Source: Clavelina lepadiformis
Lineage: Eukaryota; Chordata; Ascidiacea; Aplousobranchia; Clavelinidae
Length of the DNA stretch: 64,000 bases
Direction: 5' to 3'
Assembly (NCBI RefSeq): GCF_947623445.1
Contig: NC_135247.1
Coordinates: forward strand, 1,862,501 to 1,926,500
In this document: in pieces, positions 4,332 to 46,031 of the stretch
Layout of the letters: every line of letters starts with the position of its first letter
How positions within the stretch are numbered: the stretch's first letter is position 1
Program-made: the position numbers and the translations under genes
The notes under the pieces: generated by a model
The model's database searches: none
Told to the model about the DNA's origin: nothing
Seen by the model: the letters and a program-made list of their open reading frames with translations, nothing else

Positions 4332-5411
4332 ACATTACTCCATAACAGCTTACAGAGATTCAAAGAGATGCTTTGCCAAACTGTCGTAGTTCAGCGCATA
4401 TTATTAAAATTTATCACCGGTAGTTTTTATTATTTATAAGCTTTATTGTTCTATCCATATTGCTAAACATTCATGATAAGTCTGTTTTGCGATAAATGTA
4501 TCCCTGGTTTGATTCTTGATGTCCTACATAAATGAAATCTCTCAAATGTATTTAAAACTTTCTGTAATCACTAGCTAATAAAATGACATGTATCATATGG
4601 GGAAGCCCCATGTTCAGACATTAGTGCAACAGTAAACATCATATATTTAAGGCAGATTTGTCAGTTTTTTGAGCTTTGGCCTTTCTAACGGAAAACAGTA
4701 ATGCAAAAATACCAACATATTGCAAATTCGAAGTAGTTTAAAAAGTATCAATGAATGCTACATCTAAAAACAATCACAACAAAACTAAAACCGCAATAAA
4801 ATAATGTATCGAGTTCATTGCAAAATGTTGCCAAATAACCTTTTTGAATGGTGTTTGAGCGGTGAGAAATTATTCCCGTGTTTAATTTGTGCAAAGATAC
4901 TTCTTAGTTCGAGAATAAGTATTGCGATACCATAGCTCAGTCGGGCCATATTTTGCCAGCACACAGGCCGAATAAGGAGATGACGCAATGCCGCGGGCGG
5001 AAAAAAATCACTCAAGCGTGCCAGTGTGTGACGCAGCCGGCGAACGAGTCAACAAAAAGGAAAAGATAGCGCAGAGCAAGTTGGGTTTAATTTACAGTTT
5101 TTTCTCTGAGTAAATGTCAGATATGAGTTTAGTTTTAACTGTTTATCGTGTGGTGCCAGTTACCAGGGTTAACGATGTAAATCGCAAACTTATAAATATA
5201 TACTTTATGACAAGACTACAGAAAAACAAAACTTTTGTGAGATGTGCTTGCAACTGTCACGTTTCTAGTTTAATATTCGATACTTATGTTATCAGTTTAC
5301 TGAATAAGCCTGCAGGGTACCGTAACCACTAATCATAGCGTAACCTGATTCAACATATTCTACAAGTTTTCAATTTTACTGTGCTACAAGCTAAGTGGAA
5401 ATACGTCAAAG
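4332..5411. other. Intergenic between stathmin-domain gene and ABRACL
   Basis: AT-rich spacer of about 1.1 kb between two same-strand genes. It must hold the 3' UTR of the stathmin-domain gene and the ABRACL promoter. Short frames at 4815-5015 (-) and 5114-5332 (+) show no recognisable motif. Confidence 0.5.
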
Positions 5412-12013: not shown

Positions 12014-14743
12014 TTACGTGTCTACTTCCAAATTAGACTTCCAATAATCGTCCCAGGTCTGACGCAATCGGCTTTTGGTGTCTACGTCAGCAAACACGTG
12101 ATCGATAGCTTCTTTCGACCAATTGAAAGTCTCCCTGCGGGAAAGGCCCAATGCACCGGCAGCTATGGAGTATTCGTTTGAGAGACTTGTAGCAAATATA
12201 CCTGCGCAAATAAGACGTTAAAAGGCTGAATACGTTGAATATGAAAATACACAACATGAGCAGAGCAGTTGTATAGTTGGGTCCCAAATTTTTCCGAGAG
12301 GATTTCGCGTTGGAAGAACGTAGCGAGCGTGACAGTAGAGTTGTAGACTAACGGCGAGGGGCCACACGATTTGGGACGCTTTTTACGACAGGAAAGAATT
12401 TGTTTGTTCGTTTGAAATCGCCTGGACAAGTTTTAAATGAACTTGATTTAAATCTAAGTAGCAAGAATATTAAGTTGAACCGGGCAATGTTATAGATGAA
12501 AACCTCCCATCGTCGTGGATTTATGTGGATAGCCAACGTTATGGACAGTGCATGGACCAACGTTATGTCAAAGTTTAAGGTCTGAATGATTTCAAATTTT
12601 TTCAACGTCCCTGGCTATTCTAGATTGTTCAAGTATAATTTTTAAAATGGTAGAGAACACAGTACTTGCTGACAAATAACATATTACTCAATCAACAAGT
12701 TACACGCTGTGTATTTCGGTGATACCGATGATACCATTCTCAGGAATCATATCAAAATGTTTCATAGAATGTTTTGTAACTCATTCAAGTAATTCACCTT
12801 TGTCGTCGGTTCCAACAATGCAAGGGTGCTGGTGCTCTTGGCGCCACCAAGTGAAGTGATGCTTCGTGTGATCCTCGGGGACAGTACAAGTTTTTATATT
12901 GGACGTGACACAAACTTCTAACGGAATTCTGGAAATAATAAAAAGTTTTTCAGTAAAGCTTTCGGTTCCCAGAAATTTGGAAAGCTCTTATTACCATAAT
13001 TCTAAGGCAAAATCCTGGAGCCTTCAGTACGGTCGTATCAGAATCTTTATCCCTGGGCTGAAGAAATATCTTTGCACACAGTAAACCCGGCGATGATTTC
13101 TCACCGCTCGAACCCAGGTCACTGACCTTATTTTTGTGCGTTTTTACGTTAATGTACTTTTTTAGTTTTACTGGTATTGTTTGAATTTAGAATTGCTTAT
13201 TTCAACCTAAGAACAGGAGCCAGCGTCGTTAATGCCTTGCCGAAGGGCATTACAACAATGGCATGGCGCCGCCTAAAATCGATTGCGATTCTGTGCTTTA
13301 TCAGCAACACCAAGTCTATATCCTCGGACTGAGTAAGTTTGTGATTCTGCTGTAAGTTAAACTTTGTGCTTGGGACCAAGTAGCTGGGTTAAGTGGTGGG
13401 ACAAAACGAAGATTTTACCGTTTCTTCAACACAACATCTCTCACTCCCGGTTCATTTGATATGAAGGTGCCATGGCCAATCCGATCCGGAAGAAGTTCCA
13501 GAAGCTTCTTCGTCTCCTCTTTCTTACCTTCCACCTCAGCCATATGCACTGCAAGATGAAGATTTGCTCTTCTTGCTTGCATCATTGGAGGGATGTAATC
13601 TGCGCCGTCATTTGCATGAGGATTGCCGCTGAAATCTACACCTGTGGTGAAGCGTGGTGCGTTGATAATTATTCAACCTGAGAGCAGATTTATCGGTTGA
13701 TTGTAGATTAGCGCTTAAAACTGACTACAAAAATTAACATACAAAGGGCGGATGTCATGTCAAATTTTGCACGGTGAATTACGGAAAGCTTATGTATACC
13801 CACAACTAAGTTTCCATTGGTTGAAAGTGAAAATTCTTCGGCTAATTTCACAGTTTCGTGAGCTTCCTCCACACTTTTGCTTCGATCAATGGAAGGAAGA
13901 TAACGGACATCGATCCTGCATCGATCTTCATTCTCTTCCCGATATCTTTGAATAGCTAACAAAGGGATCATAACATAGCATAATCAAGTCCATACTAATA
14001 CACTGGATTCTGTTATTTTAAAGCCGAAGAAACCTTTCAATTACGTTGAGTGATCTCAAGTTGTTATCATTCCGGATTAAAACTCACCATAGTCGGAATA
14101 AAGATGTCAACATGATTTGAAGCCAAAGTTAATCGACTAGCTATGAATTGTTACCTGTCAGAACAGCCTCCATATAGCTCCGTTTTGTCATTCCACTGCT
14201 TAATACATTTCTTGGTGTGCTTCGTAACTCAAGATATTTGACTTGGTCCAAAGCAAAGTCTGTTATCACGTCTTTTGTGACTTCCACCACAATCTACACA
14301 GTAAAATACCAGCTGAATCAACACCACAGAAATTTATGCGAGTTTTTAAGTTGAAAGAATTTAAACATCTGAAGCCTTGAAAAATAATATTACGTATTGG
14401 CATTACCTCAGGGCTGACAACGATTTCATGAAGTATTCGGAACATTTCAAATCCCTCCTGCATTGTTCTTCGTTCACCTTTGCCGATAATCGTTGAAGCT
14501 GGAAAGCAAAAAACAATGGGACAGTGTTACAAAATATGGCAAAAATGTAAATGTAAAACGCATGTTAATGTCACAACAAAATACAATATCCCTGTAACAA
14601 CTGCACGTACCATATGAATTGTTGGTAGGCCCTCTCCTCAAGAGCTTATTCAAGGTTTCATCACTCAATGACCCATTTAGGTGAGCATGAAGTTCAATCT
14701 TTGGGAGCTCTTGACAAAATTTCAAATCAGCTAAGTCGGCCAT
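12014..14743 (-). CDS. ADAL: ADAL / MAPDA, N6-methyl-AMP deaminase, seven exons
   Basis: Exons 14743-14611, 14498-14407, 14293-14155, 13955-13800, 13641-13419, 12928-12798 and 12201-12014 splice in phase to 353 residues (human ADAL is 355). The family deaminates N6-methyl-AMP to IMP in the cytosol, clearing modified nucleotides from RNA turnover. The zinc and catalytic residues of the adenosine deaminase fold are all seen: ELHAHLNGS near residue 17, the HMAE segment in exon 5, DRIGHGTF, LEVCVTSN and GTDDKG near the end. The N-terminus MADLADLKFCQELPKIELHAH and the substrate-loop segment VKYLELRSTPRN fit ADAL rather than ADA1 or CECR1/ADA2. Intron 5 contains a tRNA-like repeat (13211-13334). 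Confidence 0.96.
13211..13334. repeat. tRNA-like/SINE-type repeat inside an ADAL intron
   Basis: The block contains 'AATGCCTTGCCGAAGGGCA' followed by 'TACAACAATGGCATGGCGCC'. A diverged relative lies at 47650-47780 (shared AACAGGAGC, CGTTAATGC, ATTA-AACA and a GCGATT/GCGAG block). The CTTGCCNAAGGGCA motif with a tRNA-like second half is common in dispersed repeats of marine deuterostomes. It lies wholly inside ADAL intron 5. The boundaries are approximate. Confidence 0.5.
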
Positions 14744-15342: not shown

Positions 15343-16854
15343 TTAATCAGAATTGCCAGCACTGTGAGATTTCTTTTTATGTTTATGATTTTTATGAGAT
15401 TTTTTTTTCTCTTTTTTGTGTTTTTTCTTCTTTGACTTTTTACTTTCTTTTTTGAACAAATCTTCATCTAAATCTGATGAAACTGATTTGCGCTTCTTAC
15501 GCTTTCGGCTTTTTCTAGCGTCTGTGGGGCTTGGGCTGCGTTTTCGTTTGCTTTTAGGGTGTCTTGTGTCCCAATTTCTGGAAACGCTCAGCTTTCCATG
15601 GAATGTGTTCCGGTATTTTGAAACTGTCCGTTCAGATGCAGTAAAATCACAGTCAGCATTATAAAATCTTCGTGCTCGGTCTTTAAACACGTGCAAGAAG
15701 TTACAGCTGTTGCCTCGAGGACAGACGCGATTATTAAAATGCATTCCACAAATTGCTCCTTTCCAACTTTTAATATTTATGAATTCACATGAAAGGCACC
15801 TGCCGCCGTAAAAACGTCCATTTAACTTTTCAAAAGCATGCACCGCGTCTTCCTCCGTCTGATATTGAACATAAACGTTGCCACGCAAATGGTTCTCTCG
15901 ATTGCAACACACTTTGAATTGAACAACTTTTCCGTACGTTTCTAATTCAGGTAAAACGTCGTCAGAAAATTCAACAAACTCATCGTACAAATCAGCTTCT
16001 GAATGCTCTAGGGCAAGGTCATTTTCATCGCCCTGAGAGCTGCGTTTGGCGCGTTGCATTATGTCAAACGCAAATGTGTTAAACATTCCACGAAGGAGAA
16101 TCGTATTGGTCCGAGATGGCTTCTCATGCAGCCTTGAACAAAAGTCACCAAAACGACATGATCCAACTTTGTCATAAAATTGACAAGGCACTCTATTATT
16201 GTTAGTTCGTAGTGTGCAAGGCCGTGCAGTAGATGTTGCGGGGGTGGTAGATAACACAGCTTTAACTGAACTGACATCAGTTTTCTTGGAAGTCACATCA
16301 CCTGACACAGATTGAGGTTCATATGGGTTACGCCACTCACTGGCCTCAGCATCTATTTGGTCAAGCAACTTGGCAATTGCAGCATTTTTTACCTCCTCAT
16401 CAACTCGAACTGTTTCTTGCTCTTTACTCTCATCTTGGGGAGTTGGAGAAACTTTGCCACTGTCATTTGACGCACAAGTTTCTTGTGAATTTACTTTGTT
16501 CGCTTGAACACCAGTTTTCAAATCATCTTCACGATTCAATGACAAGGTTACACTGTTGCTAGTTTTTTTCATTCCTTGTCCCGTAAGAAGAGGTGGCTCA
16601 GTGAAATACTGACGATAATCAATTACTTTTCTTGGAGGCGAAGTCGATTCATCAACTGAGCTTTCTTCAGAAAGCGAAGTTTCTTGTGAAACATCATGTA
16701 ATTTTCCATCACGTTTGAAAGCAAGTGCTTTACGTTTACAAGATCGTTTGATCTTTTTGATCAACTTCCTCCGTTCTTTATGTTTCAGTTTAATTGCTGA
16801 TTGTAATATCTTATTCCAGTCTAGTTCAGTTTTGAACACTTTTTGGTAATTCAT
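15343..16854 (-). CDS. ZRSR2: ZRSR2-like U2AF35-related splicing factor, single exon
   Basis: A 503-residue frame with no introns. It matches ZRSR2/U2AF35-related protein, which recognises the 3' splice site, notably of U12-type introns, in the nucleus. Domains: basic N-terminus; DQIDAEASEWRNPYEP (about 165-180, compare human DQAENELENGTTWQNP); first CCCH finger with C-x8-C-x5-C-x3-H spacing (about 224-243); RRM of the UHM type ending GRFYGGRCLSCEF (about 250-360); second CCCH finger ICGMHFNNRVCPRG (about 369-388); and a Lys-rich tail in place of the RS domain of the human protein. The start MNYQKVF at 16854 was preferred over an in-frame ATG 30 bases upstream because the extra residues are hydrophobic and unlike the family. 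Lack of introns suggests an old retrogene, or intron loss. Confidence 0.92.
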   Translation of the reverse strand: MNYQKVFKTELDWNKILQSAIKLKHKERRKLIKKIKRSCKRKALAFKRDGKLHDVSQETSLSEESSVDESTSPPRKVIDYRQYFTEPPLLTGQGMKKTSNSVTLSLNREDDLKTGVQANKVNSQETCASNDSGKVSPTPQDESKEQETVRVDEEVKNAAIAKLLDQIDAEASEWRNPYEPQSVSGDVTSKKTDVSSVKAVLSTTPATSTARPCTLRTNNNRVPCQFYDKVGSCRFGDFCSRLHEKPSRTNTILLRGMFNTFAFDIMQRAKRSSQGDENDLALEHSEADLYDEFVEFSDDVLPELETYGKVVQFKVCCNRENHLRGNVYVQYQTEEDAVHAFEKLNGRFYGGRCLSCEFINIKSWKGAICGMHFNNRVCPRGNSCNFLHVFKDRARRFYNADCDFTASERTVSKYRNTFHGKLSVSRNWDTRHPKSKRKRSPSPTDARKSRKRKKRKSVSSDLDEDLFKKESKKSKKKKHKKEKKKSHKNHKHKKKSHSAGNSD

Positions 16855-19414
16855 GTTGACAACAAGAGTTACACAGAAACACACACTACATGTGACACGC
16901 TTCTACACATCATTGCCTACTCACAAAACAGAAAATTACAGTCAGGTACACAGGGAAAAGGTGACTCATAATGTTCCAAAATTTAGCTCTGCTGGCTAAA
17001 TAACAGACATAATTGCTTAATGAAAAAATTTTTGGCAAATGAATGTCTGTACATTGTCTAAAAACGTCCATACAGAAAGCTTTCAGACAATGGTACTTTT
17101 TGTAGCCAGGTGTTCAATTGCGTTCCGCTCAAAAAATATCTCGGTACAACACATATATATATTCACAAAACATTTTGAATTACGAAAGCCTGGACCAAAG
17201 ATTGGAAATTTTTACCATTTCGAACATCTTTATCCAAACAAACAAAATATGATATGCCTTAAAATAGTCCACTTCCCTTGAAAGTTGTCATCTGATTGTG
17301 CACTTGTATCATACACTAGACCCCCTAAATGTTATTACAAATTTATCTATTTCCAAATATTTCAAAAACTATTTATTAGCCACTTGAATAATTTCCATCC
17401 AATCACATGTATGCTGGTTCAATTTTGAATCAAGGCAAAAGGAGCAAAGTGTAAAATGAAATGCTAAGTCCAAGGTGCATAGCTTTCAAATCGCTATGAA
17501 GTAAGAACCATGGAACATATTTTCAACAGTTTTTTATCGCCTAAAAGAATTCATATGGCACTCACCTGAGCAAAATATTTACAATCTAATGCCCAGAACA
17601 CTTGTAATTTAAACAAAAATCAAAGTGGGTCGAGCAGTTATGGCACGAGCATTTTCCTGTGAAATAAGGTCTAGTGCAGAATAATATCACATATATTTGT
17701 GACAAACCTGATATAGGTTACTCAACTAACCAGTGTATGAACACCCTGCTACCCAATGGTGATGACACAATTACTTTGAGTTTAACATAGCTTACTGTGA
17801 GACTGTGTGCTGACAGACAGATGTATTGTGCATTTTTCACTTCTGCACTAGCAACAAGACTAGTGTTTTGAGTTTACCTAGCTATTAATTTAACTATAGG
17901 AAAGGCACGTTAAATTATGCTTACTGTGGAATTATAGCCCGTTGTTCGTACCGGAAGGCGGCCCTCATCAATTAATCAATCGTTTTATTTTTATTTTTCG
18001 TAAACAACTTAATCGCATCACGAATAGGCCCAGCCTATGTCAAACATTTATGTAACGCGCCAGCACACTCATGTACCATCTGTGCCAGGATCTGTGCACT
18101 GTGTAGCACATTATTCCATGAATGCACGGTAACCTAGTGGATCGAAGCCTGCAGTGTACAGTACACTAGCTACATGCAAAAATCCGTAAAAAAAATTAAA
18201 AGCTGCATCACAACAAAAAGTTTCATGTATCGATAGCTGTTTTATATTTCAATCATATTATTTTTTGTCAAAAGCGCTGTGGAGACGAAAAATCAAGCCA
18301 GTTTCACCCGGTTCGTCTGCTTTCCGCCCATTAAAATGGGTGAAAATGCGGTAATATTTTCCCATTGGAGTGGCAGGAAGTATGCCTTTCTTAGCACGAG
18401 CCAATGAATACGAAAAAGTGGCAAAGCCGAAAAGGCTTAAAACGTGCTCAAAAATAATCAAGGTAATAATCGCTGATAACAACTAGCACGGCCACTAAAC
18501 CTATAATTAGTTAAATCCAAAAAACAAAAGTTGAAAAAAGTGAAATTAAGCAGATTAGCAGGTGATGTGTTGAAGTCTTTAAAATACTAATTAAAGTTCT
18601 TATTCGTTCTGCTGTAAAATAAGTCGTAGCTAGCTAAATAAGCTAAAATAGTAAGTAAAACATTCCAAACCCTGGTTAACAAAGTAAAAAATGCTGCTAT
18701 AGCTATGGTTCTTGTTGACTCTGCAATTGCAGCCCTGATTCAAACAATTTATTACAGGATATTTTTCCGTGTATTATTTTACTATTCGGCAAAAAAAAAA
18801 CATCTTTAAATCTTTTGTGAACGTTCGACTAAACCACAGATTATGGTGGACAATGGATACTTTCGGGCACCAAGTCGGACCATAAGCAGCCAGACCAGTG
18901 CACGCTGGGAACATTGCAAATCCATTACAACCTAAAGGGAGCCAGCCAGCTCACTGTAAAGAAGTTTACTAAGAGTGAGGGGTACTACGCCATTGCCCAA
19001 CGTCCAAGTGTCTGTACTAAAAATTAATTTCCCTGCAAGTTAAATAGTCAAAGCATTAAACTTGCAGTCTTCGATGACCGCAAGGTCTTTCGCCGCCCCA
19101 CACCAAGCAACTGTTAATTTTTGTTATGGTAGGATGATGGTTTTCCTCGGAATGACAAAAGTCCTTTGAGTTTTCCTTTGAATGGCGAAAAATAAATTCT
19201 CTCTCGTTAAGGCTTTAACTAGGCCTACACATATCTATGTATGCTTAGGCTAGCCTATATTGTGATAGTTCTAACAAATCGCTGGATTACCTTATCTGAT
19301 AGGCCAACTTATGAATATTGTCTGGTATTATAGACTATAGGCCAATATACTTACTAGGTTTACAACACTTCGTATATTTTGTGAAAATCACTTGGATCAA
19401 CATCTTTTGAAAAT
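16855..19414. other. Intergenic between ZRSR2-like gene and SDE2
   Basis: A 2.6-kb spacer between divergently transcribed genes, so it holds both promoters. It carries one copy of a dispersed repeat (18262-18585) and scattered CACTAGACC motifs in both orientations (about 17314 and 17666). No exon was recognised. Confidence 0.5.
18262..18585. repeat. Dispersed repeat family, copy A
   Basis: This block aligns along most of its length with 46205-46445. Shared stretches include GCACGGCCACTAAAC, ATAATTAGTTAAATCCA and CGAAAAGGCTT. Copy A has about 85 bases that copy B lacks. There is no open frame of note and no clear terminal inverted repeat, so it is an unclassified interspersed repeat. Confidence 0.7.
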
Positions 19415-20921
19415 ATGAGAGTGCAAGTTCATCTTGAAAAACTTTTTGTGCCTGCTGTTGAAGTTGAAGTGAATTCATCATGTACGATGGCCAAGTTTGC
19501 TGGACTTCTCTTTAACAACAATGTTTTGCCGTCTGCTTTAAAGTCATCGATTTATTTGACACGAAATGGTCTTTGTGCCAAAGATGATGATATATTGGTC
19601 CAAGGAGATTACATTGCTGCCCATGTAAGACTTCGTGGAGGCAAGGGAGGATTTGGATCGATGCTTCGGGCTCTCGGATCACAAATTGAAAAGACAACGA
19701 ACATGTAAAGTTTACTAATATCTAGTATCATAGCGCTTACGTTACCAGGTTGTTATTTTTAATATGGTGTTAGTTAATGTAACACAATAGTTATTTCTTT
19801 GCATGTACGGACGCAAAATTGATAATTGTGTTTGAAATTATAATTGTGGATTTGTTTTTCAGGGAGGCGTGCAGAGACCTCAGTGGAAGAAGGATGCGGG
19901 ATGTAAATAACGAGAAAAAAATGATGGAGTGGATTAAAAAGAAAGCGGACAACGATAGAAAGAAAGAACAAGAAAAGTATGAAACATTTTCTCACGAATT
20001 CTTCGTATCTTTGAATCATTTGCCAGTTTTTGAAACACTTTTTCCATCACTTACAGAATTGAAAAGTTAGAAAAGCAACTTCAACGTCCGAAACACTATT
20101 TTAATGATCCCGATTATGAGCGCAAGTTGGAAGAAGCAACAGATAATGTGGAAGATGCTTTAAAGAAAGGACTCACTGCACAGAAGCGAAAAGCAGAGAA
20201 CCTTCCATCAAGGTAATGACTGATGAATATGATCGTTGTCATGGATACAATACCTCTTCAATCTTTTTCATCTCTATCAAACTTCTAAATTTCCAGCTCC
20301 AAAATGAAATCTTCTGTGGATGTAAAAAGGAGCAAGTTATGGTTTAGTATAAACGACTCCACTGATTCCTCCTCTGATTCTGATGGTGAAGACATCAATC
20401 CAAGATTATCCATGAAGCAAGGTAATGGGTTTCCAGAATCAAGTTCATCTTTACAAGATGAATCCTTTTCCACCAGCATAAACACCGATTCTTCCAAAAC
20501 GGAAGATAATGAAGTGATCTCTGCTCCTCCACAAAAAGAACAGAGCATTCTGAAAGAGACTTCCGCCAAACTTCCTGCCCATGAAGAGGATATCAGCCAG
20601 GATGGTGATGAAGCAAAGAGAAGTCATGAAGAAAAGTCCAGTGATGATGCATCAGCAGCAGGTGATGACCCAACTAGAACTTCTACCCCTGATAAAGAAG
20701 ATGAAAAAAAGCAGGACATTTCTGATATTGATCTCTCATCCTTCAACAATGTGGAGGAATTAAAATCTTTGGGTCCGGAAGCGTTGAAATCTGCTTTGAT
20801 TGCTCGTGGTATGAAGTGTGGGGGAGATTTGACACAAAGAGCTGAGAGATTATTTTCCGTTAAAGGATTAAATAAAGATGAAATCCCAACGTCACTTCTT
20901 GCAAAGAAAAAATTGTTATGA
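19415..20921 (+). CDS. SDE2: SDE2, ubiquitin-fold splicing and genome-maintenance factor
   Basis: Exons 19415-19704, 19863-19976, 20057-20212 and 20297-20921 join in phase to 394 residues (human 451). SDE2 has an N-terminal ubiquitin-like fold cut after a GG pair; the released C-terminal part acts in pre-mRNA splicing and replication-stress control in the nucleus. Visible: the ubiquitin-like fold (1-76) ending VRLRGG, the conserved mature start [18 protein letters not shown], the [17 protein letters not shown] block, a Lys/Glu-rich helix, [10 protein letters not shown], an acidic Ser-rich middle, and a C-terminal SAP-like region ([20 protein letters not shown]). The GG|KGG cleavage site is intact. 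The gene converges on CAMSAP: the stops are 638 bp apart. Confidence 0.96.
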
Positions 20922-21558: not shown

Positions 21559-24500
21559 TCATTTCTTTGCATGCTGCCAGAGAGAGTTCTTGATAGTGAT
21601 TCCATCAATGCTGACCGACAATGTTTTTGAAGGGACACTGGAAAATGACCTTCTTCCAGAGTTGTATTTGAAGAGAGATTCAATCATTGGAGGTGTAATG
21701 GTATGTGGGCCTAAACAAATTAAACTTAATACTTACAACGCATTTTTAAATGTGTTTGAGGGACTGAAACAATCGCTTAAATTTCTCCAACAGTCCTTCA
21801 AAATTTTTACTTTTGCAACTACAACAGCAAAATTAGCAGTTAGCATTTAAAAGTCGTGTTCTTTTCAAATTTTTTAGTGATCGCCAAAGTGAAACCTTAG
21901 CACTGCATGCAGTAATAACTGGCCACTATCAAATAGGCATTTGTGAGTGCAAGTTAACGATAACATTAATGTGCAACCAGGTATGAGCATAACACATACC
22001 AGTCCCACAAATCTTGTGCAATTTTTCTTCATCGGGGTGGTAGCTGTACAAGCCACGATACTGACATTTGCCGTCCCTGAACAGCACCATCAAGTGGCGT
22101 GCTTCACTTTGCTCCAGTGCCTGCAATGTGCGAGAATCTTGTTTACAAAGGTCGGCTTCGAAATCGTTTTCATGGATTTTTTGCCGATTCCAACTCTTTC
22201 ACCACTACTCTGGTTTTTTGCTCGCCAGAGTAATAACGAGTTGATTTGGTCTGACAGAACCTTGGTAATTAATCAGCCGCGAGCACCACACACCTCGGTT
22301 AATAATAAAAAGCACTCTACATTGCAATCTCTTCATATTATCCATACCTGCAGCGTTTTATTGCGAACGGGTTCATTCACTTTACCAGACAAACAGCAAT
22401 GATTGAGAGAGTTCATTATCAGAGTCCTGTTCGATTTAACACTAAGTTGCTTGTATAACTTTGGCCCTGTTAGAAGATAAGCATTTGAAAACGTTTTTGT
22501 CATCAAACCGTTAGGATAGCTGTTAGATGTAAAACTTAAAAGACGATAATTTTTATTTGTTTAACATAATATCTTTGCATGCAGTATTTACCAGTGTATT
22601 CAGATCCTGGAGTTGATCCCAACGAATCTGAATCATCTTCACGAGAACTCGACTAAAGTAGAAGAACATTTTATCAAAATTTAGCTGTATTTTAACCTTT
22701 GTATGAAAAATACATGTCGTAAAAACCACATGCTTATAAAATGCATCAAGTTCAATCCCTACCCTATGGGCAAAGATTTTCGGGGAGAAGGGAACAGTCA
22801 ACCCACGGCTTGTAGATGGCACATCTGAACAAGATAAATACATTTGTTATATGACGATATTTGTTGCCAGTTTATTCAATCATCTTACCGTGTTCCAAAT
22901 TTCTTGAAGATTCATCACGTTCTGGGTGCTGTGGAGTGAGTTTTACCTTGGGGGTCTGAATAACATGTGATGCGACTTATTAGTTTTACAAGAAATAACA
23001 ATTTGGTTGAAACCAGTCGAGGAAACATCTTTTAAGATACAATTTGCAAGTACCAGCGACAAATTATTTTTTTCATTTATTTATTACGAGCAGATTTTTA
23101 CAATATAAAAGTTTGCTAGTCTGAGTTTAGTTCAAGTTGGTTATTTACAATGGGTACAATACAGAGAAACTTTGAACCCAACAATTATTTGCCTTCTTTG
23201 CACTTCCACTGGAGCCGATGACACCAACTTGATGGAGAGACGCCTCCTCCTCTTGCTTTTTTCTTTTCTGATACTCCTTCAATCTTTTTTCTCTTTTTTC
23301 TTTTTCCTCCACCTTTTTCTGCAAAGCTCTCTCCTGTTGAAGTCTGCCGGGATATTTACAAATTACCAATTGGAAAATTAAAACTAACAACATGTAGAAT
23401 TGTAGACTGAACAAATTTAAATGAAATGGTAATGTATTGACAGGTTTAAGGATTCTATAACCCTCTTTGTCCATCGCCCTGAATTTGAAAAGGAATCTTT
23501 CATCAAAGACGAACCTGGCTTCGACTTTTCTCACTTCTGATTCCTTTTCTCGCTCCATCTGCTTCTTCCTCTGCTCTTCTTCTTTCTTTAATCGTGAGAG
23601 GAGGAATTGTTCCTTCTTCTTTGCAAGTTTGCTCGCCGGACTATTCTCATCGACGATCGTGAAACCCATCGCTGTATAAAAAGTGGACCCTCGGTAAGAA
23701 CACTATAATCCACGTCATTCAACTACTGAGAATTGGGTGAAGTATCATGATCGCAAAGTTGTATTGACCAACATATACTTGAGTGGTTGGCAGCAAAACA
23801 CATACCTCTTCTCTCCGAATCATCCAGGTTGGAGAAGGAGTCGTCTCTAGCTTGAGCTGTTTACATCAAGAAGAAAAATTAAAAATTCCTCCAAACACTG
23901 AATGTCCAATTGAACGAGGCAGCTACTTACAAGAGGTTGCACGAGGCGATTTCGAGGGTGTTGATTGACACGATGAGCTTTTTATCCGGTCGGAAAACGT
24001 GTTGTAGTTGATTGAAATGTCATGAGATTCTTGTGATGTTTCTGAAACGATCAAATCACAAAGAAATTTTGTTTAATAGTTTTCAGTGCACAGTTAATGC
24101 ACCATAGTATCTCCTATGAATACACAAAGATGTGGACTTTTGTAGCAACTTGTTACCCGGATCTTGTTTGTGGCCTTTGCTGCCAGAAGGAAATAATGAT
24201 CGTCGAGTCTGACTGTCTTCAACAGCTGTCTCCGTCATAACAACGTTGCTTGCTTTTGCGTGAGAGCGAGTCGGACTTTGCGAGGAAAGATCTTTGTGTT
24301 TGTTCCGACTTGATCCGGATGCTGACTGAGGTGAGTTCACTTTCGAAGTAATACCGGGAGTCATTTTGTTAGAGGATGACGGATTATTTAATCTCGCATC
24401 AACATCGGACCGGCTTAAAATCTGCGTTTGATTATTTTGCATGACCCGGTTATTAAAGTTTTGATTTTCATCGATAGACTGCTTCAATTTTTCAATGTTA

Positions 24501-27500: not shown

Positions 27501-30500
27501 TGCTACTGACAATTAGAGTTAGCAATAACACAAGGTATTTGAAGCTGCACACATTATTCTACCCTCGGACCTATTCAGGCTTATGCAAAGAATTGAAATA
27601 AAACCGACCATCTTTGTACACGGAGAACGCCTGAACTCTGGTGTTCCATTTCGAAGGTGTGTTAGCTGCCTCTGGCACACCATTTGTGACATCATCAAGC
27701 GATGTTGATTTTCGTAAAGATGAATTTTCAAGCCTTCTACTTGAGAGTCTGAGAAAACAAGAGCAAAAGCTTAAAAACAAACTTCTAAAGCACTCACACG
27801 AAGCTATTAATCGAGTAAAAAGTGATAAACTTTTTGAGTTAAATAAGACATAACTGAGACGTTTTGTTAAGAAAAAAAGTAACCGTGAACACACAAACGA
27901 CTGTTATTTTGAATTATCGCAATCATTCAACAACTTTGAAGTTAATGCATTCTTCTCAATCCTTTTCATACAACTATGTATCAAAATGGTAAAGTGACGA
28001 TGTGTATAGTTTACAGCAACACAACGCATTATACTAGCCTGGGAGTGGCACGACTAGGTGGCCGTCCTTCCTGTTGTCTCTTCGGCAGCAGTGGCACTTG
28101 GGGAACCCCCATGTGAGCAACCTTAGCAGCAAGATCGGGTGTGCTTCGAGAGAAAGTTGTCTAAAAAAGAACAGACACATATTTAACATGTTGACTGCCC
28201 ACTATAAGAGTTCCGGTGATCGCTGTTTTGGTACCATAGTTTTCTCTGTGGGTTTACTTTTATTGTGTCTAATCACTGGGGTTCCGAGTGAAGGTAGCTT
28301 CAATCTCATGACCGACAAGTATTAATACAACAATAAAAAATCAAATTTTTAAAATTATTGCAACTAATAGCACAGCATAAGCATTATTATTTATGTATAA
28401 TACAGCAGCAGGTTAACTGAAGATTGTGCTCAGGGTTATGCCATGACACATCGGTGAGGTAAACAAGCTATTAAGACGAGGATAACTCAGGATATGTCAT
28501 CTGTCAACACTCCTCACTTGCAAATTAGATGTTGATGAGTTGCTGCATGAACTGTTGCTCCGACTCGTTGGTAAGAAACTTCTTATTGTTGCCTCGCTAA
28601 GCAAAGATTTTGCTTCCGGAAGAATCTTGGCGGCGTCCGCATCACTTTTTTCATGGAGGTTGCTTAATCTGGTTTTGAAACCACATAAGATTTTCATTTA
28701 AAGAAAGTTCAAAATTCTACAGTTTATTGTTCAGCACTTGACCTTATTATCTACCTCATAGGTGTCAAACTCCCGGCCCGCGGGCCACATCCGGCCCGCT
28801 TTACAATAAAACTTGGCCCGCAATGCTATTTTATACATTGAACTATTTCCGGCCCGCGAGATCATTGTGCAGTATAACTTACTTTTTTCAAGCAAGAAAC
28901 AAGATTATAACAAATCGCACAATACAGCAGCACAACAGTTGCCTCATCATGCGATAGAATAAATCGATTTATTCCCAGCCAAAACCGCCAAAAAAACAAA
29001 AATTTGGTGCTGTTTCGTTGACTGTTCCAATTCATGTACTCGTGTCACGAAACGTTCAATCAAGTTTTATCCTTACGGCCCGCGGCGTTAAATAAGTTTT
29101 GAGTTTTGGCCCCTGGTGCGATTGAGTTTGACACCCCTGATCTACCTTAACAATGGCTGGTGAGCAGAATGAGGTCTGGTTTCATTTTGCTTGGAAGCAC
29201 ATTTCTTCATATGACCATCTGCAATGACAAATCACTTATTGCAAAGCAACTGTCGGCTTCAATGCATCATAATGAAGGAAAGTTACCTCTCGGTTTAACA
29301 AATTCTGGGTGAGGGTCAACCTCAAAGCAGTAAAAGAGAAAAGCATAAAATGTAAGGAAGTTTTGTCGCAATTCTTCGGAGCACTGAAGAAAATCTTCCG
29401 CACTTAAAAAGTCCTCCATGCTTGGGAGGTTGTAGCTGGGGAACAACGTTTCGTAACAAAACTCAAGGGAAATCTGAAGATTATGGAGAGAGTCCGCTAT
29501 TGACATCAGACTGTTTAAAATGATATCTGTTGTAGAAAATGAAAGAAAAATGAACTGTATATAGATACCATATATATTTGTCAATCTTGGATACCATACA
29601 GTGGCTATTACAATCACAAATGCTGTTAAAGGTCTCTACATTCTTACTTAACTTTAACTACATATTTTTACTGTGTCAACCCCTCATCAAAATGTATATT
29701 AGAATGATGTAAATACATGGTTTAACTTGGCTAAAAAATGGAAAAGGGAAGACTGCATGTTGCTGTATTGTAACAAACAACATGGAACCTGCTTTTAGTT
29801 TTTGCTTTTTTATTTTTTACCAAGTTTTCACCATGAAATATGTAAGTAATATAAAACTATCTTAACTGCATTTCAATGGTTCTATGTGAACAGAAAAATA
29901 TGACGGCAGAAATGCTGCCGTTACAAAATTACGAGGAAGTCTAAAAAATGTTTGTTAGCAAGCCTCTACAAATCCATTACCTTCCGAAGGTATCATGTGT
30001 GGGCAATAAAAATGTATGACAAGAGCCAGCACACAGCTATCACAGAGATCATCAACATCCTCAGTAACTGTTGGATACGTTCTGTTTGATGACGTCTGCA
30101 GAAATGCAATAACACTACAAATCAATGTTTTTCCTGAACAAATGCATAACTTAGGACTTCACAATGTACGGAAAGATAGTTTTAACTCAAAGTTATGACT
30201 ATGAGACATGTATGTTTCGATTTTCAATGAACCAATAAATAATATTTTATCACAAAAAAGATACATTAAAGCCTTGTTTGAACGATGCAACTGCAAACCA
30301 AATTCAGAATGTATTGTACGCCAGCCAGCAGTGCTTTAACAACAACAAAGAATGAGCATTTAATGACTGAGGTAAGCAAATAAATTGGACAATCTGAGGG
30401 TGTAATAGTGGGCAGGAATGCAGAGTCATAAAAAATGTCCGATGCATGGTCGCTGGACACACAAACATTCTTAATTAAAGCAAGGCCGAAAATTTTAAAT

Positions 30501-44555: not shown

Positions 44556-44691
44556 ATAGCGACTGTCAAAACAGCGACTGTCATAATGGCGACTTCATAA
44601 TAGCGACGTAATCAAGTGAGCGACATTCCAAACAGCGATTGTCTAAATGCCGACCGCATTAAAACAGCGACTGTTATGATAGCGACTTAAC
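44556..44691 (+). repeat. Left subterminal array of AGCGACTGT motifs in the MULE
   Basis: About nine degenerate copies of (N)AGCGACTGT occur within 140 bases, for example GATAGCGACTGTC, AACAGCGACTGTC, AATAGCGACG and AACAGCGATTGT. The same motif appears inverted at the other end (45950-46031). Clustered short motifs in both ends of a transposon are usually transposase-binding sites; that role here is inferred. Confidence 0.8.
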
Positions 44692-44764
44692 TCGTGTTCA
44701 CTGAGTTGAATTCACTGAGTCGAATGAGGCATTTATAAATGGAAGGCAACACTATGACGTGTCA

Positions 44765-44822
44765 CATTAATTTTAAGGTCGTTTGAAAAATTTCATTAAT
44801 TTTAAGGTCGTTTGAAAAATTT
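44765..44822 (+). repeat. Perfect 29-bp tandem duplication before the transposase start
   Basis: Two identical 29-base units beginning CATTAATTTTAAGGTCG lie back to back, ending 6 bases before the transposase ATG. They may be part of its leader or promoter, or a replication slip. The lack of any difference between units suggests a recent origin. Confidence 0.9.
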
Positions 44823-44828
44823 GCCCCA

Positions 44829-45887
44829 ATGGATTTTATAATTTCAAGAAAAGGAAGTGACATGATAAGTTATGAAGGCTTTTTGTACAGGAAAGACAAA
44901 ACAAAGTTAAATACAATCAATTGGAGATGTGCTAAAACAGGTTGTAAAGGTCGCCTAACGACAAGCCTTCAGTATCGTGAGCAACAACAACCCCCAGTGA
45001 GCAGTGGCGTCCACACGCATCCACCAAACCCTACGGAAGTGGCAGCCAGGAGAGTTGAAAACAGTGTAAAAACAGCTGCAGTAAGAACACGGGATCCACC
45101 ACGAAGAATCGTGCAGGATGCATTGACCGAAGTTAATGAAGAAGTTGCAGCAGCTGTTGGCTCTTCCACAAATCTGCGTCAAACCATCAGACGGAAAAGG
45201 AAAGCAACAGACAACAACCCCCCAGCTCCTGTTAATGTAGGAGAACTGTTCATACCTGATATGTTGAGACAAACAACAGACCAGCGTGGCTTCCTGCTCT
45301 ATGACAGTGGGCCTGGAGATGTTCATCGGATGCTTATTTTCAGCACAGATCAGTTTCTTCCAACCTTACACGATTCCGAACACTGGATGTGTGATGGTAC
45401 ATTCAAAGTGTCACCATCCCTTTTTTATCAAGTATACACTGTGCATGCTATGATACGAAACAATGTGCTTCCCTGCATTTTTGTTCTACTCCCAAATAAG
45501 CAACAAGTAACATACTCTCAAATGTGGACTGAAATCAAATCACTGAAACCTGGACTCGCTCCAAGAAGTGTACAGATCGACTTTGAACTAGCTTCCAAAG
45601 CTGCGCTCATTGAAGCATTTCCTCAAACGCACATCTACGGCTGTTACTTTCACTTGGGACAATCGCTCTGGAGAAAGATTCAGGAAAACGGACTGCAACG
45701 GTTATATGTGCAAGACGACAATATTCGGATGGCACTGAAAATGCTCCTTGCTCTTGCCTTTCTACCAGTGGATGAAGTGAGCGATGCCTTTGATGAATTG
45801 GTGGCAGACTACCCAGCAGAAGTAATGCCTCTCGTAAATTACTTCGAAGACAAGTATTTGTCTGTTTCTGCGTGCATACGTGTGTAG
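44829..45887 (+). CDS. FLYWCH zinc-finger plus MULE transposase, C-terminally short
   Basis: A 352-residue frame. Residues 1-65 form a FLYWCH zinc finger (SYEGFLYRKDK, INWRCAKTGCKGRL, HTHPP), a DNA-binding domain often paired with MULE transposases. Residues 185-285 carry the MULE DDE core: HWMCDGTFKVSP (first Asp about 189), YSQMWTEIKSL, QIDFELASKAA (second Asp about 251) and the family C-x2-H motif GCYFHLGQSLW. The frame continues to NYFEDKYLS and then ends within the element. The third catalytic acidic residue and the usual (N)N-x2-E-x-H segment are missing, so the protein is unlikely to be active as it stands. Splicing to a further exon is unlikely because the terminal array follows. Confidence 0.9.
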   Translation: MDFIISRKGSDMISYEGFLYRKDKTKLNTINWRCAKTGCKGRLTTSLQYREQQQPPVSSGVHTHPPNPTEVAARRVENSVKTAAVRTRDPPRRIVQDALTEVNEEVAAAVGSSTNLRQTIRRKRKATDNNPPAPVNVGELFIPDMLRQTTDQRGFLLYDSGPGDVHRMLIFSTDQFLPTLHDSEHWMCDGTFKVSPSLFYQVYTVHAMIRNNVLPCIFVLLPNKQQVTYSQMWTEIKSLKPGLAPRSVQIDFELASKAALIEAFPQTHIYGCYFHLGQSLWRKIQENGLQRLYVQDDNIRMALKMLLALAFLPVDEVSDAFDELVADYPAEVMPLVNYFEDKYLSVSACIRV

Positions 45888-45949
45888 AGAGGTGTGGGGG
45901 ATGGAAGTGCGTGTGCGCGTAAGCCTTGGATTTAATAAAAGAAGTGAGG

Positions 45950-46031
45950 TCGCTGTTGTGGCAGTCGCTGTTTTAAATGAATCGCTGTCGTGTGGTCGCT
46001 CTATTGATAGTCGCTGTTCTGACAGTCGCTA
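45950..46031 (-). repeat. Right subterminal array of inverted AGCGACTGT motifs in the MULE
   Basis: Six copies of the motif in the opposite sense to the left array (GGTCGCTGTT, AGTCGCTGTT, ATCGCTGTCG, GGTCGCTCT, AGTCGCTGTTC, AGTCGCTATT). Together with the left array they make the two ends mirror images over more than 80 bases despite poor end-to-end identity. Confidence 0.8.

Follow-up and report, generated by a model that had tools for sequence, protein, structure and literature searches.

The sequence is best explained by a recent insertion of a Buster-type hAT MITE into the intron 8 splice donor of CAMSAP, a microtubule-binding gene, in the ascidian Clavelina lepadiformis, with splicing proceeding mostly from the donor copy next to exon 8 and leaving the mRNA unchanged, a reading that we consider probable. 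The 8-bp target-site duplication made by the element coincides with the core of the predicted donor, and this duplicated core is likely the reason that the insertion was tolerated. In what follows, the duplication copy adjoining exon 8 is termed near and the copy beyond the element far, and positions are those of the window, the whole 64,000-nucleotide stretch of DNA that was analyzed, which covers 1862501–1926500 of contig C8.

Position of the element in the CAMSAP gene

Read along the minus strand, exon 8 is followed by AGGTAGAT, the 383-bp element, a second AGGTAGAT, the remainder of intron 8, and exon 9 (Table 1). The element ends are CAGGGGTGTCAAACTC and GAGTTTGACACCTATG, inverted over 16 nt with 2 mismatches, and the 8-bp duplications AGGTAGAT (minus strand) are exact on both sides. 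Identical 8-mers spaced 391 bp apart are found at 2 of 63,600 start positions in a window-wide count, and an exact repeat at both element ends is therefore not a chance event. The preliminary description had called the insertion a hAT MITE whose target-site duplication spans the CAMSAP exon 8 donor and leaves two identical donor cores. Its placement proved exact to the base, the donor itself being predicted; the two cores AGGTAGAT lie at 29147–29140 and 28756–28749; and the assignment to hAT MITEs agrees with the 8-bp duplications, short inverted ends, and many near-identical copies. No further copies of the element end were found within the window with up to 3 mismatches allowed. An AATAAA in the CAMSAP sense lies inside the element (28968–28973, minus strand), within the palindrome GAATAAATCGATTTATTC, and is a possible candidate for an early polyadenylation signal.

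Table 1. Predicted gene parts, element features, and splice site candidates around exon 8 (window positions)
Feature	Position	Strand	Remark
CAMSAP exon 7 (CH domain end, predicted)	29287..29526	-	Pfam CAMSAP_CH; frame
CAMSAP exon 8 (73 nt, predicted)	29146..29218	-	Open frame of exons 7–10; skipping leads to a stop
CAMSAP intron 8, lengthened, 477 bp (86 bp from far donor)	28669..29145	-	
Near target-site duplication copy AGGTAGAT	29140..29147	-	Predicted exon 8 donor, -2 to +6
Left terminal inverted repeat CAGGGGTGTCAAACTC	29124..29139	-	
Non-autonomous hAT element (MITE), 383 bp	28757..29139	-	Left end at 29139
Donor-like site within element, AAA/GTAAGT (G of GT at 28882)	28877..28885	-	7/9 versus CAGGTAAGT
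Right terminal inverted repeat CATAGGTGTCAAACTC	28757..28772	+	2 mismatches versus left
Far duplication copy AGGTAGAT	28749..28756	-	Second donor core GAG/GTAGAT; possible acceptor TATGAG/
CAMSAP exon 9 (predicted)	28518..28668	-	Frame

The gene carrying the insertion is predicted to encode a CAMSAP protein, as had been proposed, from Pfam matches to CAMSAP_CH in exon 7 (E = 2.9e-6, narrowly above the cut-off) and to CAMSAP_CKK at 21929–22198 (E = 1.1e-15). Exons 7, 8, 9, and 10, the number 8 being taken over from the preliminary description, are open together in one of the three reading frames, and omission of exon 8 leads to an immediate stop; exon 8 and its donor are thus required for the frame. 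The 155-aa stretch of exons 7 to 9 scored 25.8 bits against CAMSAP_CH, below the cut-off of 27, and a comparison of this stretch with solved structures gave no convincing match, three PARP9-type chains (E = 0.66 to 0.86) being rejected as relatives. SEATIRSFL in exon 9, which we take to resemble a CAMSAP motif, was given no weight. The earlier estimate of intron length also stands, since the insertion added 391 bp to an intron that measures 86 bp from the far donor and 477 bp now. Other CAMSAP introns measured 68 and 357 bp, and 477 bp is therefore not extreme.

Several other features of the window are recorded here. A neighboring gene at 15346–16902 (minus strand) looks like a CCCH/RRM protein by Pfam, which we presume to be of the U2AF35 kind, and another at 20289–20918 (plus strand) looks like an SDE2 C-terminal protein. 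A 366-aa open frame at 44787–45887 (plus strand), with FLYWCH and MULE transposase domains, is flanked by 34-nt inverted repeats that are 79% complementary (arms at 44659–44692 and 45943–45976), the frame and repeats together being a putative Mutator-like element. A further pair of 73-nt inverted repeats (4833–4905 and 13061–13133) is 77% complementary, with its arms 8,155 nt apart. The two window repeats are unrelated to the 383-bp element.

Element family, target rule, and age

The genome searched comprised 209,060,895 bp in 95 contigs, compared with 210.1 Mb in 102 scaffolds in the part of the published description consulted (PMC10884593). Among the best 40 of 418 candidates, the element matched itself, at least 39 other near full-length copies at 97 to 100% identity, and one short fragment. 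The exact 22-nt left end occurs 215 times genome-wide and the exact 16-nt end 273 times, an element with two such ends being counted twice. From 93 loci, 61 distinct copies were retained after removal of repeats of one copy, loci with missing ends, and duplications with fewer than 6 of 8 positions matching, a procedure that biases the sample to well-kept copies. Exact 8-bp duplications flanked 53 of these 61 filtered copies, the CAMSAP copy included, and TA was central (nnnTAnnn) in all except one of the 53, with cTcTAgAg as the commonest letters.

The element is a MITE in that it is 383 bp long and non-coding, with inverted ends and many near-identical copies, and it belongs with Buster-group hAT elements in having an 8-bp duplication, the nnnTAnnn rule, and short inverted repeats starting with CAG. 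As described in the sections of two papers cited here, nnnTAnnn is the target rule of Buster elements (PMC3517528, PMC3499496). At least 150 hAT dimerization-domain matches were present in the genome, many within long open frames, and none of those listed was tied to the ends of the element. The three longest relatives found (925, 930, and 1188 bp) held open frames of at most 107 aa, and no autonomous partner was identified among the hAT-domain matches and longer relatives. Separately, hAT-domain frames of equal length (854, 845, and 361 aa) recur on different contigs, which suggests that several hAT families were recently active.

The CAMSAP copy is very young by appearance. In an alignment of 33 copies of 380 to 386 bp, with a mean pairwise divergence of 1.6%, it differed from the majority sequence in 5 columns, each difference recurring in one or more of the other copies, and its youthful look follows from this lack of private differences. 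Identity of the two copies of AGGTAGAT is to be expected of a young insertion and is uninformative on selection. An element-free second copy of the site was sought in the assembly, and the joined flanks matched this locus alone, as two pieces.

Donor choice at the duplicated splice site

The proposed mechanism depends on the register of the target rule. The transposase would take an 8-bp target with a central TA, and an AG/GTA donor has TA at +2/+3, the fourth and fifth places of the octamer running from -2 to +6. Since the nnnTAnnn rule sets TA at +2/+3 of AG/GTA, an insertion centered there would copy the donor core, and a cut centered on the donor TA would duplicate exactly the 8 bp from -2 to +6. 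Exon 8 thereby retained its own -3 base together with a full predicted donor core, and the element falls within the intron. Most transcripts probably join the near donor to the original acceptor, removing a 477-bp intron in place of an 86-bp intron and leaving mRNA and protein unchanged.

Splice site candidates were compared with scores that use textbook base frequencies and by counting matches to the 9 positions of CAGGTAAGT. On these textbook frequencies, the near donor AAG/GTAGAT at 29145 has 6/9 matches and a score of 5.8, the far donor GAG/GTAGAT at 28754 has 6/9 and 5.6, and the internal AAA/GTAAGT scores 7.9, above both duplicated donors; the next-ranked site, GCC/GTAAGG at 29076, has 5/9 and 5.5. 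The internal site is found in 32 of the 33 copies of 380 to 386 bp. Use of the near donor is our best guess from frame, ends, and scores. It is supported by the in-frame joining of exons 7 to 10 and by a score slightly above that of the far donor, whereas the higher score of the internal donor and the weakness of GTAGAT as a donor argue against it. Also in its favor, the RNA of the element with its duplications folds at -128 kcal/mol, compared with -107.3 (sd 5.4) for 100 shuffles (z = -3.8; none of the 100 as good), with the two ends paired, and in this modeled fold the paired ends might loop the element out. The far donor, which retains the 86-bp intron, could be preferred if short introns are recognized as units. 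We infer that the allele is harmless; a harmful young allele carried in the heterozygous state also fits the data.

Alternatively, the far (28754) or internal (28882) donor may be used often, exonizing all or part of the element and yielding a truncated or degraded transcript from a partial loss-of-function allele. Extended to the far donor, exon 8 would measure 464 nt, and extended to the internal donor, 336 nt; both extensions read TAG directly after ...HQPLLR. The preliminary description held that use of the far donor would exonize the whole MITE, which is right as to the 464-nt exon and incomplete in that TAG follows immediately and that the 391 nt added are not a multiple of 3. Its picture of two donors is likewise incomplete by sequence, given the higher-scoring internal donor and the possibility that the far copy also serves as an acceptor. 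Frequent use of these sites would agree with the identical core of the far donor, the greater strength of the internal donor by the scores used, and the youth of the copy, on which selection has perhaps yet to act. The near donor, however, is first in order and retains its exon context, and we consider such exonization unlikely.

Another outcome that would preserve the same mRNA is removal of the element as its own 391-nt intron, from the near GT to the far AG, rebuilding AG/GT for subsequent removal of the 86-bp intron in a recursive or stwintron-like manner. The sequence would allow such consecutive excisions, the inner one rebuilding the outer donor, since the duplicated AG/GT could act as donor in its near copy and as acceptor in its far copy. 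The 15 nt upstream of the far AG contain 8 pyrimidines, against 7 for the predicted intron 8 acceptor at 28669 and 8 for the intron 7 acceptor at 29219; two other predicted CAMSAP acceptors, however, have 11/15 and 12/15, and pyrimidine count is a crude measure that by itself neither supports nor excludes the far AG as an acceptor. The possible far acceptor also has G at -3 (GAG), a base disfavored at that position. Overall, we regard splicing of the element as a separate intron as very improbable. It is extremely unlikely that exon 8 ends elsewhere and the duplication is coincidental, or that the assembly is at fault: exon 8 is indeed short and outside the Pfam domain, within the 155-aa stretch that lacks a convincing structure match, yet this is opposed by the frame argument, by an exact duplication obeying the target rule of the family, and by the assembly QV of 67.4 given in the portion of the published report consulted (PMC10884593).

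Chance insertion, known systems, and significance

Donor targeting by the element family was considered and rejected. A target weight matrix was built from the family duplications, to which the CAMSAP copy contributed 1 of 53. Of all TA sites in the window, 2.1% are AG/GTA-type octamers on either strand, and these carry 0.9% of the target weight, corresponding to about 1.9 expected targets of this type among 215 ends or 2.4 among 273. Genome-wide, AGGT lies beside the left end in 3 places, ACCT in none, and AGGT beside the CATAGG right end in none; an AGGT start or ACCT end was seen in 1 of the 53 exact duplications sampled. Two of the three AGGT places lie in identical 3,024-bp stretches and are thus counted once, giving 2 events at most. 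With about 2 expected and at most 2 independent cases, there is no excess, and the CAMSAP insertion is therefore regarded as a chance hit that got repaired. By the family matrix, AGGTAGAT ranks at the 86th percentile of window TA sites and the consensus-like AGGTAAGT at the 57th, which indicates that GTA donors are acceptable, not preferred, targets.

In the second AGGT event, on contig C1, the two duplications differ (AGGTAAGT and ATGTAAGT); it lies in a stretch with internal repeats and is not at a recognized donor. The two 3,024-bp stretches there (C1:28235069 and C1:28253576) are 100% identical and about 18.5 kb apart, and in both an element relative is flanked by AGGTAAGT and ATGTAAGT; either the stretch was duplicated very recently or the identity stems from the assembly.

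The following comparisons draw on portions of the papers cited. Mar of Drosophila willistoni and TcBuster, an active relative, share 8-bp nnnTAnnn duplications and short CAGRGG ends with the CAMSAP element, and Buster-group hAT MITEs such as Mar are, like it, non-coding and recent (PMC3517528, PMC3499496). Introners are DNA elements whose splice sites can derive from target-site duplications, some families co-opting one or both splice sites from the insertion site (PMC9860276). They create new introns in coding sequence, whereas the CAMSAP element hit the donor of an old intron and lengthened it; the single AGGT or ACCT case among 53 exact duplications suggests that its family does not generally make introns. 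Fungal [D1,2] stwintrons, which could form where a new intron arises within a splice signal, resemble the CAMSAP case in that the insertion interrupts the donor of an older intron (PMC12403724). Their inner unit, however, is itself an intron that brings its own splice sites, and no target-site duplication was found there, whereas inner splicing in CAMSAP is a possibility. Drosophila Doc1053 is likewise young, with duplications at or near intron ends, and differs in being a retrotransposon that created an intron (PMC3296678). Derivation of splice sites from target-site duplications (PMC9860276) and of nested introns from donor insertions (PMC12403724) is already known. A narrow literature search returned no plainly identical case of a splice donor duplicated by a target-site duplication and, in the portions of the sources consulted, no statement of the register argument (nnnTAnnn versus AG/GTAnnn). 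Older maize work on Ds and dSpm reportedly bears on splice donors duplicated in this way.

In sum, with no excess over chance in the C. lepadiformis genome alone, the finding is modest as a single case. It shows cleanly, and with a young element, how a splice signal that is struck can be restored through the mode of insertion itself, the simple geometric reason being the correspondence of nnnTAnnn and AG/GTAnnn. A broader possibility, which we consider quite unlikely, is that the Buster rule matches the animal donor consensus in register, such that insertions at donors are self-healing and the MITE exits by recursive splicing in an introner-like manner. If so, any insertion at a donor TA would restore the donor and add an AG/GT junction at the far end, and intron lengthening would be a hidden route for the persistence of hAT elements in genes. 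For genomes with active Buster-type elements, the prediction is that donor-centered insertions should survive more often than other insertions at exon edges.
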